From Acidaminococcus fermentans (GTDB lineage: Bacteria; Bacillota; Negativicutes; Acidaminococcales; Acidaminococcaceae): a stretch of 64,000 nucleotides of DNA. The stretch's first letter is position 1. Every line of letters starts with the position of its first letter. Shown here one piece after another: positions 22,582 through 27,553 of the stretch. The stretch spans positions 62,001 to 126,000 of the forward strand of contig NZ_VULN01000002.1 of assembly GCF_009696675.1 (NCBI RefSeq), read 5' to 3'. Position numbers and translations under genes: made by a program. The notes beneath the pieces were generated by a model, which was not told the origin of the DNA, searched no databases, and saw only the letters and a list, made by a program, of their open reading frames with translations.

Positions 22582-22684
22582 CTATTGCCAACTCCGAAGA
22601 TTTTCGATAAAATAAAAATTAATATACACTATATCTGTATAAAATATCGATGATAAGTTGCTGTATTGTACAAAGGAGAAACCC

Positions 22685-23839
22685 ATGGAGCAGCAAAACA
22701 AACAAATCCAGGAAGCGGTGGAAAGCTTCCGGCAGGACATGCTGGATTTTTGGAAGGATCTGATCAACTTCCAGGCCGGCAGCAAGGAAAAAGAACGGAT
22801 GGAGACCCTGATGGAAAAGGTGTCTGCCTATCTCCAGAAGCTGGGAATGGAAAGCGAACTGGTGGAAACCGGGGCGGTCCCCCTGATCCGGGCCTGGTCC
22901 GGGAAGGAAAGGGCCGGCCAGCCCATCCTCCTGAGCGGACACCTGGATACGGTGTTCCCCAACGGCAGCTACCCGGAAAATCCCTTCACCATCAAGGAAG
23001 GAAAGGCCTATGGCCCCGGGGTCTGCGACATGAAGGGGGGGATTGTCATGGCGGTCTACCTGGCCAAAGTGCTGGAAAAAATCGGCTATGACCGGCATCC
23101 CATCAAACTGCTTTTCGTCCCCGATGAGGAAATCACCCACCAGGGGTCCCGGGCGGACCAGCTGCTGGCGGAAGAAGCCAAGGGCTGCCTGTGCGCCTTC
23201 AACTTGGAAACCGGCCGGATGGACAACTGCCTCACCGTAGGCCGAAAAGGCTGCATGGATGTGTGGATCACCGTCCACGGGAAGGCCGGCCATGTGGGCA
23301 ATGCCTACACCAAATCCGCCAACGCCATTGAAGAAATGGCCCACAAAATCGTGGCCCTCCGGGCTCTTACGGACCTGGACAAAGGCCGGATCGTCAGCAC
23401 GGACATCATTTCCGGGGGCACGGCCTCCAATGCGGTGCCGGATACCTGCCGGATCGAAGTGGACTGCCGGTACGATTACAATGAGGACAAGGACAAGCTC
23501 CAGGAAGCCATCCGGGCCATCTGCGCCGAGACCCATGTGGCCGGCACCCGGACAGAAGTGGAATTCCCGGCCTTCATGCCCGTCTTTGAACGGACCGAAG
23601 GCAATGACCACCTGCTGGCCCTGGTGAACCAGGCGGCTGCGGAATTCGGGATCCCGGCTTTCGGTGCGGCTCATCCCGGGGGCTGTTCCGATGCCTCCTT
23701 CATGGCCCAGGCGGGGATCCCCATCCTGGATTCCGTGGGGGTCCAGGGGGATGGAGCCCATACTCTCCAGGAATATGCCATCGTTGAAACCATGTTTGAA
23801 CGGACCATGCTGCTGACCGCAGCCATCTGCCGTCTGTAA
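22685..23839 (+). CDS. M20-family metallopeptidase (glutamate carboxypeptidase-like)
   Basis: A zinc amidohydrolase/peptidase of about 384 residues. Ligand motifs are visible: GHLDTVF (His, Asp), GPGVCDMKGG (bridging Asp), VPDEE (Glu base and ligand), GGCSDASF and the terminal GDGAHTLQEY (His). It should remove C-terminal residues from short peptides or acyl-amino acids, and carboxypeptidase G2-like enzymes cleave glutamate. The ATG at 22685 has AAAGGAGA upstream; TTG 22658 is in frame without one. The YfcC transporter follows 21 bases on, so substrate uptake and hydrolysis are probably coupled. Confidence 0.9.
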   Translation: MEQQNKQIQEAVESFRQDMLDFWKDLINFQAGSKEKERMETLMEKVSAYLQKLGMESELVETGAVPLIRAWSGKERAGQPILLSGHLDTVFPNGSYPENPFTIKEGKAYGPGVCDMKGGIVMAVYLAKVLEKIGYDRHPIKLLFVPDEEITHQGSRADQLLAEEAKGCLCAFNLETGRMDNCLTVGRKGCMDVWITVHGKAGHVGNAYTKSANAIEEMAHKIVALRALTDLDKGRIVSTDIISGGTASNAVPDTCRIEVDCRYDYNEDKDKLQEAIRAICAETHVAGTRTEVEFPAFMPVFERTEGNDHLLALVNQAAAEFGIPAFGAAHPGGCSDASFMAQAGIPILDSVGVQGDGAHTLQEYAIVETMFERTMLLTAAICRL

Positions 23840-23860
23840 CTGCTGTAAAGGGGAGTTGTT

Positions 23861-25300
23861 ATGACAGAAAACAAACAGGACACCGTCCAGAAACCGGTGA
23901 ACAAAAAAGTATCGGTACCCAGCCCGATCATTATCATCTTCTTTATCCTGATCCTTACCGCCATTGCCACCTATCTGATCCCGGCCGGGATCTTTGACCG
24001 GGTGAAGGATGCGGCCAGCGGCCGTATGGTGGTGGATCCCAACACCTTCCATTTCATCGCCAAGCATCCTGCCGGCTTCTTCGACGTGTTCAAGGCGGTG
24101 CCCCGGGGCGTCAAAGGGGCCAGCGGTATTGTAGGTTTCCTGATGATCATCGGGGGAGCTTTGAACGTAATGGCGGCCACCGGGGCCATCAACGGGGCTC
24201 TGGGCCATGTGGTCACCAAGGTGAAGGGTCGGGAAATGCTGCTGATCCCGGTGCTGCTCACCATTATGACCTGTCTCAGCACCTTTGCCGGCTGCAGCGA
24301 GGAATACATCGCCTTTGTGCCCCTGATCATGGCCGTATGCTATGCCCTGGGGTTCGACTCCATTGTGGCGGTGGCCATGCCTCTGGCCGCTGTAAGCGGG
24401 GGCTACGGAGCCGGGGTGACCAACGCCTTTACCGTAGGGGTGGCCCAGAGCATTTCCGGCCTGCCCATGTTCTCTGGCATCCAGGTCCGGGTGGCCATGC
24501 TGGTGGTGCTGATTGTGATCAATGTGGTGTATACCATGTGGTATGCCCGGAAGATCAAGAAGAATCCGGAAAGCAGCTACATGTACGATTATGACCAGAT
24601 CTACCGTCCCCAGATGGATCTGAGTGCCTATGAAGGGGATAATGTGCTCATGACCGGCCGTCAGAAGATCATCATGGGCGGCTTTGTGGTCACCGTGGCC
24701 GCCATCCTGGTGGGGGTCATCAAATACGGCTTCTACATGGATGAACTGGCCGCCCTGTTCCTGATGATGGCGGTGTTCGCCGGCATTGTGGGACGGCTCA
24801 GCGTCAACGACTTTGCCAACGCCTTCATCGGCGGAGTGAAGAACATGGCCATGCCCTGCATGATGGTTTCCCTGTGCAAAGGGGTGACCCTGCTCATGGG
24901 GGACAGCAAGATCCTGGATACCATTATCTACTACCTGGCGGCCGGGCTGAATGTATTCCCTCATTCTCTGCTGGGCTTCGGCATGTTCATCGTCCAGGAC
25001 GTGTTCAACCTGGTGGTGCCTTCCGGCTCCGGCCAGGCAGCCATCACCATGCCCATTATGGCACCGCTGGCGGATCTGGTGGGGCTCACCCGGCAGACCG
25101 CCGTCCTGGCCTTCCAGATGGGGGACGCCTTCACCAACATGATCACCCCGGCCAGCGGCACCACCATGACCGTGCTCACCGTAGCCGGTGTGCCTCTCCG
25201 GCGCTGGTGGAAGTTTGCCTTCCCTCTTTTGGGGCTGGAATGGATCTTTGCCTTCGTGGTGATGTGGTACGCTTCCGCTACCCATCTGGGACCCTTCTGA
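23861..25300 (+). CDS. YfcC-family transporter
   Basis: A 479-residue membrane protein with about 12 helices, beginning VPSPIIIIFFILILTAIATYLIPAG, a YfcC/DcuC-like family start. Further signatures are FAGCSEEYIAFVPL, GVTNAFTVGVAQ and the C-terminal GDAFTNMITPASGTTM. The family carries C4-dicarboxylates, basic amino acids or small peptides; the substrate cannot be read from sequence. Being co-transcribed with an M20 peptidase favours a peptide or N-acyl amino acid. Confidence 0.88.
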   Translation: MTENKQDTVQKPVNKKVSVPSPIIIIFFILILTAIATYLIPAGIFDRVKDAASGRMVVDPNTFHFIAKHPAGFFDVFKAVPRGVKGASGIVGFLMIIGGALNVMAATGAINGALGHVVTKVKGREMLLIPVLLTIMTCLSTFAGCSEEYIAFVPLIMAVCYALGFDSIVAVAMPLAAVSGGYGAGVTNAFTVGVAQSISGLPMFSGIQVRVAMLVVLIVINVVYTMWYARKIKKNPESSYMYDYDQIYRPQMDLSAYEGDNVLMTGRQKIIMGGFVVTVAAILVGVIKYGFYMDELAALFLMMAVFAGIVGRLSVNDFANAFIGGVKNMAMPCMMVSLCKGVTLLMGDSKILDTIIYYLAAGLNVFPHSLLGFGMFIVQDVFNLVVPSGSGQAAITMPIMAPLADLVGLTRQTAVLAFQMGDAFTNMITPASGTTMTVLTVAGVPLRRWWKFAFPLLGLEWIFAFVVMWYASATHLGPF

Positions 25301-25344: not shown

Positions 25345-25372
25345 TTGACAAATTTTCTCAAAAGCGTATAAT
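25345..25372 (+). promoter_or_regulatory. Consensus promoter of the T-box transcript
   Basis: A perfect TTGACA (25345-25350) and a perfect TATAAT (25367-25372) are 16 bases apart, about 30 bases upstream of the T-box leader. Confidence 0.85.
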
Positions 25373-25394: not shown

Positions 25395-25670
25395 ACAGTG
25401 TTGAATGGGAAAAGTACTTGTCCAGTCTCACATTCCAGAGAACCTGCCGCTTGGTGCGAGGCAGGATGCTGAGAGGAGAAGGAAAATCACCCAGGAGCTG
25501 CCCGCTGAAAGATTCCAAGTAAGTGGGGCCGGCTGACAGCCGTTATTCTGTCCGGCATTGGAAGGGAAATCCGGAGATGCTAGTAAAGAGGTCGCAGCAG
25601 CGACAACAAGAGTGGTACCGCAGAGCACAGCGCTTTGTCTCTTACAGGAGACAAAGCGCTTTTCTTTTTC
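25395..25670 (+). ncRNA. T-box leader, predicted isoleucine specifier (AUC)
   Basis: The T-box sequence AAGAGTGGTACCGC lies at 25608-25621. The terminator arms AGCGCTTTGTCTC and GAGACAAAGCGCT (25629-25641, 25648-25660) precede a T-rich tract. In stem I, TGGG (25406-25409) pairs with CCCA and AGTA (25413-25416) faces GAA (25482-25484). CTTGTCC pairs with GGAGAAG above the loop. The triplet after GAA-A is ATC at 25486-25488, followed by A. The UGGU bulge implies a tRNA with discriminator A, which fits tRNA-Ile and not tRNA-Asn (the alternative AAT reading). Uncharged tRNA should favour readthrough into the BASS gene. Confidence 0.85.
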
Positions 25671-25730
25671 TCCCAGGGAAGCCATCAGCCGTTTGATTTT
25701 TGCAGAAAACATTTTTTGGAGGGGTAAAAC

Positions 25731-26711
25731 ATGAATCTGTTGACAAAAGTAAGTGGCTTTGTAGGGAAAAATCTCACCTGGCTGGTGCTGGCTACCATCG
25801 TGGGCGGCTATTTTGTTCCGGGGGCCTTTTCCTGGTCCGTCCATTACACTGTATGGCTCCTGGGTGTGGTGATGTTCGGCATGGGCATGACCCTCCATTT
25901 GTCCGATTTCAAACTGGTGCTCCAGCGGCCTAAGGAAGTCCTGGCCGGTACGGTGTGCCACTACACCATCATGCCTCTGGTGGCCTTTGCTCTCACCAAG
26001 GTGTTCCATCTGAGCCCGGATCTGGCGGTGGGCATGGTGCTCCTGGGTTCCTGCCCCAGCGGCACCGCTTCCAATGTGATGAGCTTCCTGGCCAAAGGGG
26101 ATGTGCCTCTGGCCGTATCCGTCACCACTGTTTCCACCCTGCTGGCTCCTGTGATGATGCCCTTCCTGGTATGGGCCCTGGCCGGTGAATATGTGAATGT
26201 TTCCTTTGTTTCCATGGCTCTCACGGTGATGAAAGTGATCCTGGTGCCTCTGGTGCTGGGGCTCCTGGTCCACAAAGCCGTAGGGGAAAAGTTCCTGGCC
26301 CAGATCCAGAAAGTGCTGGTGCTGCTGTCCGCTTTTGCGGTGCTGTCCATCCTGGGCGGCGTGGTGGCTGTGAACGGAGCCAAGATCGTGGCCCTGGGTG
26401 CCTTTGTGGTGGTGCTGGTGCTGCTCCATAACCTGGTGGGCTTCGGCATGGGATATTTTATCACCGGGAAACTGGGTATGGGCAAACCCCAGCAGCATTC
26501 CGTGACCCTGGAAGTGGGGATGCAGAATGACGCCCTGGCCCTGTCCATCTGCGCCGTGTACTTCGCTCCTGCCGTGGCCATCCCGGCTGCTGTAGGCGCC
26601 GCCGTCCATCAGATCACCGGTTCCTTCCTGGCCGGCCTCTTCGCCCGGAATATGGACCGGTACGAAGCCAGAAAAGCCGCCAAAAAAGCAGCGGTGGCAG
26701 TGGGGGACTGA
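25731..26711 (+). CDS. Bile acid:sodium symporter (BASS) family transporter
   Basis: A 326-residue protein of about ten helices. BASS signatures are visible: MFGMGMTLHLSDF, LLGSCPSGTASNVMSFLAKGDVPLAVSVTT (the crossover region binding Na+) and the C-terminal EVGMQNDALA. Bacterial members move ketopantoate or other organic acids as well as bile acids. It sits alone behind a T-box leader with a predicted isoleucine specifier. Control by aminoacyl-tRNA suggests a substrate related to isoleucine, for example its 2-oxo acid. That is inference; the sequence does not fix the substrate. Confidence 0.9.
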   Translation: MNLLTKVSGFVGKNLTWLVLATIVGGYFVPGAFSWSVHYTVWLLGVVMFGMGMTLHLSDFKLVLQRPKEVLAGTVCHYTIMPLVAFALTKVFHLSPDLAVGMVLLGSCPSGTASNVMSFLAKGDVPLAVSVTTVSTLLAPVMMPFLVWALAGEYVNVSFVSMALTVMKVILVPLVLGLLVHKAVGEKFLAQIQKVLVLLSAFAVLSILGGVVAVNGAKIVALGAFVVVLVLLHNLVGFGMGYFITGKLGMGKPQQHSVTLEVGMQNDALALSICAVYFAPAVAIPAAVGAAVHQITGSFLAGLFARNMDRYEARKAAKKAAVAVGD

Positions 26712-26715
26712 GTTA

Positions 26716-26758
26716 AAGGGAGTGCTGCACGTTCTGTGCAGCACTCCCCTTTTTTTTT
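26716..26758 (+). terminator. Terminator after the BASS gene
   Basis: GGGAGTGCTGCAC, the loop GTTCT and GTGCAGCACTCCC form a 13-bp perfect stem, followed by C and T9. It is one of the TG(T/C)TGC-core terminators. Confidence 0.95.
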
Positions 26759-26797: not shown

Positions 26798-27553
26798 ATG
26801 TTGAAGAAAATCATGCTCCTTGGCTGCCTGCTGGCCCTTTTCCTGGGGGCCGGGTGCGGCAAAGAGACCAATAAAACAGAACAGGTCCATGTGGCTTCCT
26901 ATCCGGGCTGGGTAGAAATCCAGGCCGGGGATCAGGGATCCTTTGCGGTGCCTCCGGAAATGATCCTCCAGAGCCAGGAAACCCGGGATGGACTGCTGAA
27001 GGCTCCAGACCTGGATCCGCTCCTGAAAAAATGGCTGGAAGCGGACCAGGAAGTGGTGAAGAGCCCCGGGTCCGTCATCGTCCAGAGCGGGAAACTGGAT
27101 CCGGTGCCCTGGAATACCGATGAACACCTGGTGTGGGTGGAATTCAAGACCGTGGCCAGCCCGGAAAAAATGCCCCGGTATGGCCAGAACATCGGCCTGA
27201 AAGGGGACCAGATCAAAGAATTCGGGGACATTACCCAAAAAAGCATCCAGGGGATCTACACCAAGATGCTGCCGGAAGGCTATTCCCTGAAATTCACCAA
27301 CTGGCAGCCCATGGCCAGCAATATCGTGAACGGAGTGGAAAGCCTCCATACCAGCTATGACATGGAAGTGCTCCAAAAGGGACAGCACCTGATGACCTTC
27401 CACGCGGAACGGTGGACTCTGTTCAACCTGGACCGGGTCCATACTCTGACTGTGGTGTGGAACAAGGCAGATGACGGCTACTGGAAGGAAGACACCCACA
27501 AGCTCACCAACATCATCAATACTCTGAAGATCACCCCCAGCAAGGGGAAATAG
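26798..27553 (+). CDS. Lipoprotein of unknown function
   Basis: A 251-residue predicted lipoprotein: MLKKIMLLGCLLALFLGAGC has its lipobox LGAGC at about residues 16-20. The mature part is a mixed alpha/beta domain with many Trp and Tyr residues and no motif I recognise. A perfect TATAAT lies at 26763-26768, overlapping the end of the preceding terminator, so it has its own promoter and probably forms a single-gene unit. Confidence 0.75.
   Translation: MLKKIMLLGCLLALFLGAGCGKETNKTEQVHVASYPGWVEIQAGDQGSFAVPPEMILQSQETRDGLLKAPDLDPLLKKWLEADQEVVKSPGSVIVQSGKLDPVPWNTDEHLVWVEFKTVASPEKMPRYGQNIGLKGDQIKEFGDITQKSIQGIYTKMLPEGYSLKFTNWQPMASNIVNGVESLHTSYDMEVLQKGQHLMTFHAERWTLFNLDRVHTLTVVWNKADDGYWKEDTHKLTNIINTLKITPSKGK

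Follow-up and report, generated by a model that had tools for sequence, protein, structure and literature searches.

To our knowledge, most bacterial members of the BASS family have no known substrate, and the usual annotation for them is bile acid symporter. Predicting what a transporter carries from its T-box is a long-established practice, and the T-box-controlled transporter families tabulated in one such study are ABC, APC, DAACS, LIVCS, MFS, NHAC and NSS, with BASS absent (Wels 2008, PMC2494555). In ASBT_NM, carboxylate and 2-hydroxyl are bound through main-chain NH groups, the terminal hydroxyl of pantoate is held by N295 and H294, and a contact between Ile207 and pantoate has been suggested for the inward-facing state (PMC10645422). 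Pantoate, a 2-hydroxy acid, stabilises ASBT_NM whereas ketopantoate does not, and N265 has been blamed for shutting out the keto form (PMC10645422). We describe here a BASS gene of Acidaminococcus fermentans, BASS-A, for which tRNA-Ile-dependent regulation is strongly supported by the leader sequence and its relatives.

The window, a stretch of 64,000 nucleotides of contig NZ_VULN01000002.1, contains the complete BASS-A transcription unit (Table 1). The original prediction had described a T-box sequence, a terminator and stem I features, and had proposed a scan with a T-box model. All are borne out by the visible motifs, a covarying switch and a full-length match to RF00230 of Rfam (E 7e-26, 119.5 bits with a gathering threshold of 93), which a whole-genome Rfam search returns as well. 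The bounds first given need adjusting, as their start at 25395 lies 3 bases inside the Rfam match and the element proper starts at the promoter.

Table 1. Features of the BASS-A transcription unit (positions in the window).
Feature	Position	Strand	Evidence
Sigma-70-type promoter TTGACA-N16-TATAAT	25345..25372	+	consensus 12/12; shuffles average 0.7 promoter-like sites
T-box leader RF00230	25392..25645	+	Rfam covariance model
AGTA of stem I	25413-25416	+	sequence
CAGAGA (GA) motif, stem I	25436..25441	+	sequence; kept in orthologous leaders
Specifier codon AUC (Ile)	25486..25488	+	register calibration on the genome's other T-boxes; AUC/GUC/CUC in orthologs
Antiterminator	25608..25643	+	covariation across 17 orthologous leaders
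Bulge UGGUACC (TGGTACC) in antiterminator	25613-25619	+	sequence
Intrinsic terminator hairpin, then U tract	25629..25660	+	folding energy and covariation
Ribosome binding site GGAGGGG	25718..25724	+	sequence; 6 bases 5' of ATG
BASS transporter gene (BASS-A), 326 aa	25731..26711	+	Pfam SBF, ASBT_NM, AlphaFold
Terminator 3' of BASS-A gene	26718..26748	+	14-bp stem and T tract

The leader terminator has a 14-bp stem with a folding energy of -23.2 kcal/mol (z -8.2 vs. shuffles), and it is mutually exclusive with the antiterminator, the two overlapping at 25629-25643. On 17 distinct orthologous leaders, both helices were given three measures (the share of cells paired, the number of double-change cells and a covariation score) and compared with 500 shuffles and with slid versions. 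The terminator has 97.5% of cells paired and 22 double-change cells, the antiterminator 99% and 9, and for neither did any of the shuffles (0/500) equal the observed values; both also beat every slid version in all three measures. Since the gene has a terminator of its own, with the promoter and T-box upstream, the unit is monocistronic, and the leader is the control region of a one-gene BASS-A unit. A shared operon with the upstream genes for an M20 peptidase and a DcuC-type carrier (22658-25300) is ruled out by the intervening promoter and T-box; moreover, these neighbors are not conserved in Phascolarctobacterium, where pth and prs lie upstream. That upstream operon, whose carrier is of the DcuC/YfcC type, has no T-box. 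On the other side, 3' of the BASS-A terminator, a predicted lipoprotein-like ORF (26798-27553) has no Pfam or NCBIfam match.

The amino acid sensed by the leader was read in a register calibrated within the same genome (G000), which carries 17 T-boxes by the Rfam whole-genome search, by aligning the 3' strands of their stems I. The calibrators gave specifiers of AUC for ileS and ilvC, GUC for valS, UUC for pheS, CUC for leuC and CUG for leuA, as well as AUG for metA, UGC for cysE, UGG for trpE, UCC for serA and ACC for thrS. In this register the BASS-A leader reads AUC, as do its nearest orthologs, which supports the isoleucine (ATC) specifier first proposed; four AUC T-boxes are read in the genome, those of ileS, ilvC, BASS-A and a second BASS gene, BASS-B. 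Among the calibrating T-boxes, the variable base of the UGGN bulge matches the tRNA discriminator (UGGA for the U73 of Cys, Thr and Gly, UGGC for the G73 of Ser), and the UGGU of the window fits A73. The original argument that UGGU needs discriminator A is therefore consistent and excludes Ser, but it is weak: A73 is found in the tRNAs for Ala, Arg, Glu, Leu, Lys, Met, Phe, Pro, Tyr and Val (tRNA-Ile was not among the tRNAs recovered from the genome), and because ten or more tRNA families share it, UGGU cannot single out Ile. We dropped the bulge as an uninformative means of fixing the amino acid. The only shifted-register reading that all orthologs would share, UCN (Ser) at +1, is ruled out by the G73 of tRNA-Ser and the UGGC bulge of the serA T-box. 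Control of the BASS-A leader by tRNA-Ile is thus well supported at the level of sequence.

Two other transporter genes of this genome also have T-boxes. One, encoding a MetN-like ABC transporter (L010, G000:C12:154605-154822), has a specifier read as UGC (Cys) and a leader 66% like that of cysE; a reading of AUG is ruled out by its UGGA bulge, and the assignment suggests a cysteine/cystine importer rather than a methionine importer. The other (L006, G000:C2:9644-9885) is a CUG (Leu) T-box on a permease that appears YkvI-like by eye.

The genome has three BASS genes: BASS-A in the window, BASS-B (C1:16962-17912) and BASS-C (C8:29972). BASS-A and BASS-B each have an AUC T-box, while BASS-C has none and lies directly 3' of panC. 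With 17 T-box genes in a set of 2,200, the chance that two of the three BASS genes carry a T-box is nominally ~2e-4. In the BASS-B locus, taken as gene plus T-box (G000:C1:16962-18209), the leader is 71% identical to the ilvB2 leader and 74% identical to the ilvC leader, the latter suggesting leader duplication within the ilv regulon. Acidaminococcus has ilvBNC, ilvD, ilvE (G000:C1:108907) and leuABCD, so uptake would only supplement synthesis; a search for citramalate synthase returned only a LeuA-like gene with a score under the cut-off.

That the downstream gene belongs to the BASS family, as originally stated, holds: BASS-A scores 151.9 bits against Pfam SBF (PF01758, cut-off 24.3) and 253.6 bits against ASBT_NM in the PDB, and its AlphaFold model (pLDDT 84.5) superposes on the ASBT_NM structure 8oyf with a TM score of 0.90. 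It falls below the curated cut-off of the bile acid:sodium symporter subfamily (TIGR00841, 242.9 vs. 326.3 bits) and below the PanS equivalog cut-off (NF047939, 231.4 vs. 400 bits). The Na+-site residues are kept (S114, N115, E261 and Q265, for S114, N115, E260 and Q264 of ASBT_NM), as are T112, A113, N265 and H294 (ASBT_NM numbering) of the substrate site, where A268, V292 and Q294 replace G267, W293 and N295 of ASBT_NM. The same changes run through the clade of BASS-A orthologs (A clade): in 22/22 proteins G267 has become Ala, W293 Val or Ile, and N295 Gln, with H294 kept, whereas N295 is Asn in 76/78 unlinked BASS proteins. The pantoate-site set of PanS (G267, H294, N295) accordingly reads A, H, Q in the A clade, and branched-chain 2-oxo acids lack the terminal hydroxyl that N295 and H294 hold in pantoate.

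We sampled the A clade in Acidaminococcus (5 genomes), Phascolarctobacterium (6) and Megasphaera and relatives. Every copy found has a T-box (15 of these loci are confirmed by Rfam), and the specifiers are limited to AUC, GUC or CUC, i.e., Ile, Val or Leu. Four Megasphaera-type genomes (G331, G334, G337 and G341) have two A copies each, one Ile and one Val or Leu. As gene neighbors differ between genera, leader and gene have been kept together without synteny. In one Phascolarctobacterium genome (G016, L027/L100), the BASS-A leader seems to lack the distal half of stem I and has no GA motif, and it keeps the specifier, antiterminator and terminator, reflecting either a deletion or an assembly fault.

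Linkage of BASS genes to branched-chain amino acid (BCAA) supply extends well beyond this clade. Units of ilvD followed by BASS-B, with the BASS gene 19-104 bases 3' of ilvD, are found in Acidaminococcus G003, G005, G006 and G007 and in G029, and each unit is headed by a T-box, with an AUC specifier in three cases and CUC in the other two. Pectinatus has an Ile T-box followed by BASS and ilvD, adjoining leuA with a CUC T-box, and Sporolactobacillus has an ilvD-BASS pair (the ilvD link only). An AUC T-box lies directly 5' of BASS in Dielma, seven Erysipelotrichales and Terrisporobacter; at the level of orders, comparable pairings are seen in Erysipelotrichales and Peptostreptococcales. In G868 (L303 2326-2871), an Ile T-box precedes BASS and ilvE; this BASS gene lacks its N-terminal half and appears to be either a pseudogene or the product of an assembly gap. 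On a tree of 148 BASS proteins, BCAA linkage needs 7 changes vs. 34 in shuffles, and well-supported branches force at least five origins, with pan-linked BASS falling elsewhere. The Rfam pan motif (RF01749) lies near three BASS loci (L263, L264 and L280), consistent with PanS-type members under a different RNA control.

Three specifier changes suffice to explain the A-clade tree, and in the last of them a Megasphaera lineage reverted from Val to Ile (support 100/99). Among the 326 columns, 16 split the original Ile proteins from the Val/Leu ones, 10 of them exactly and the others nearly so, and of seven columns that changed uniformly on the return branch, three are among these sixteen: 75, 207 and 293 (ASBT_NM numbering). 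The overlap has a hypergeometric P of 0.003, or 0.016 with exact columns only; these values are nominal, since columns and branches were picked after the data were seen, and a single reversal is available. At positions 207 and 293 this branch restored the ancestral residue, and position 293 adjoins H294. We tentatively suggest, at somewhat less than even confidence, that specifier codon and transporter pocket evolve together, so that the codon would report the preferred acid of tRNA-controlled BASS scavengers of branched-chain 2-oxo acids that arose repeatedly in Bacillota.

For the locus as a whole, we think it rather probable that a class I, transcription-terminating tRNA-Ile T-box drives a one-gene operon whose product imports branched-chain 2-oxo acids, chiefly 3-methyl-2-oxovalerate. 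When Ile is short, uncharged tRNA-Ile would pair with the AUC specifier and the UGGU bulge, the antiterminator would form, and the Na+-coupled BASS transporter would be made. Imported 3-methyl-2-oxovalerate would then be converted to isoleucine by a transaminase, presumably the ilvE product. Starvation induction points to uptake rather than export, and BASS-A would be one of a wider BASS set recruited to BCAA supply, distinct from the panC-linked, PanS-type paralog. The earlier proposal of an Ile-related cargo, for example its 2-oxo acid, agrees with the Ile/Val/Leu specifiers, the ilvD and ilvE operons and the pocket covariation, but appears too narrow, as these suggest branched-chain acids more generally. 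Counting against the oxo-acid reading, BASS-A keeps N265, ASBT_NM disfavours the keto form of pantoate, and BASS-A does not share the Ser/Gln pair that plant keto-acid BASS have at positions 265/112. In addition, no typical IlvE was found in Phascolarctobacterium, so amination there would need another enzyme; its PF01063 protein is of the D-amino-acid-transaminase type and was dropped as proof of an IlvE.

An alternative under the same regulation is a cargo of branched-chain 2-hydroxy acids, or of the 2,3-dihydroxy acids used by IlvD. The preference of ASBT_NM for pantoate over ketopantoate (PMC10645422) fits such a cargo, since 2,3-dihydroxy-3-methylvalerate is an isomer of pantoate with the same hydroxy-acetate group; so do the ilvD adjacency and the retention of N265, T112 and H294, to which the ilvD-linked B clade adds G267, W293 and N295. 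However, ilvD is absent yet Ile-T-box BASS is kept in Phascolarctobacterium (6/6 genomes, one of them rated 100% complete), Dielma and G280, where dihydroxy acids would be useless, which disfavours an IlvD substrate, and the order BASS then ilvE in G868 points to an oxo acid. We consider hydroxy acids an unlikely cargo on balance, though they and the free amino acids are serious rivals.

Import of the branched-chain amino acids themselves, again under the same regulation, seems less likely still: we know of no BASS protein that carries amino acids, and the units of BASS with ilvE and with ilvD fit precursors better, favoring a 2-oxo acid. The Ile/Val/Leu specifiers fit such a cargo, ilvD-less genomes would gain from it directly, and in most cases a transporter under a T-box carries the amino acid that the T-box senses (Wels 2008, PMC2494555), but main-chain NH binding of carboxylate and 2-hydroxyl in the BASS site (PMC10645422) disfavours an ammonium group. 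We regard as improbable that the cargo is a branched-chain fatty acid, for instance 2-methylbutyrate, from which intracellular carboxylation would yield the 2-oxo acid: such a compound has no 2-oxygen for the BASS site to recognise, and ilvD/ilvE adjacency would not be predicted. Some rumen anaerobes do use this carboxylation route to 2-oxo acids, and such a cargo would also explain the Ile/Val/Leu set. Finally, a PanS-like ketopantoate/pantoate carrier that acquired its Ile T-box either accidentally or to serve cross-regulation, though both family models match and the nearest solved structure binds pantoate, is highly improbable given the missed PanS cut-off, the separate panC-linked BASS without a T-box in the same genome, the changes at G267, W293 and N295 in all A-clade members, and an association that recurs with BCAA codons only.

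Together, these comparisons suggest that T-box-linked orphan BASS proteins probably scavenge the carbon skeletons of branched-chain amino acids, the pairing being found in many gut bacteria, and that BASS-A most likely takes up branched-chain 2-oxo acids, above all those of the Ile type, in response to starvation. The leader RNA thereby tells which metabolite need such BASS proteins may serve and splits them from the pan-linked kind, and specifier codons together with two pocket positions would predict Ile-type vs. Val/Leu-type acids. If this is true, the common gut anaerobes Acidaminococcus, Phascolarctobacterium and Megasphaera would scavenge branched-chain oxo acids, a route of cross-feeding for which we know of no assigned bacterial carrier.

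Neither T-boxes nor BASS proteins are new as such. We found no report of a T-box-controlled BASS in a search confined to open-access literature, which establishes no priority. The BASS-A leader resembles the Ile-type transcriptional T-boxes of ileS and ilv leaders (RF00230) in its AGTA and GA motifs of stem I, its bulges for specifier and UGGN, its antiterminator that competes with a terminator and, as read here, its Ile specifier; it differs in controlling a BASS transporter. The protein shares its fold (~41% identity) and its Na+-site and kept substrate-site residues with ASBT_NM of Neisseria meningitidis (PDB 8oyg with pantoate), but has G267A, W293V and N295Q at the pantoate site in addition to T-box control. 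PanS is likewise a BASS protein, with a substrate scaffold related to branched 2-oxo acids, whereas BASS-A is not beside pan genes, a different paralog being pan-linked. Transport of 2-oxo acids by BASS proteins is known from plants, where BASS5/BAT5 takes chain-elongated 2-keto acids and BASS2 takes pyruvate (cited in PMC10645422), but these are proteins of plastids, and in place of N265/T112 they have Ser/Gln, where BASS-A has Asn/Thr. BCAA carriers under T-box control, such as LIVCS (BrnQ), also place BCAA transport under a BCAA T-box (PMC2494555), but LIVCS is an unrelated protein family that carries amino acids, whereas BASS-A is predicted to carry oxo acids.
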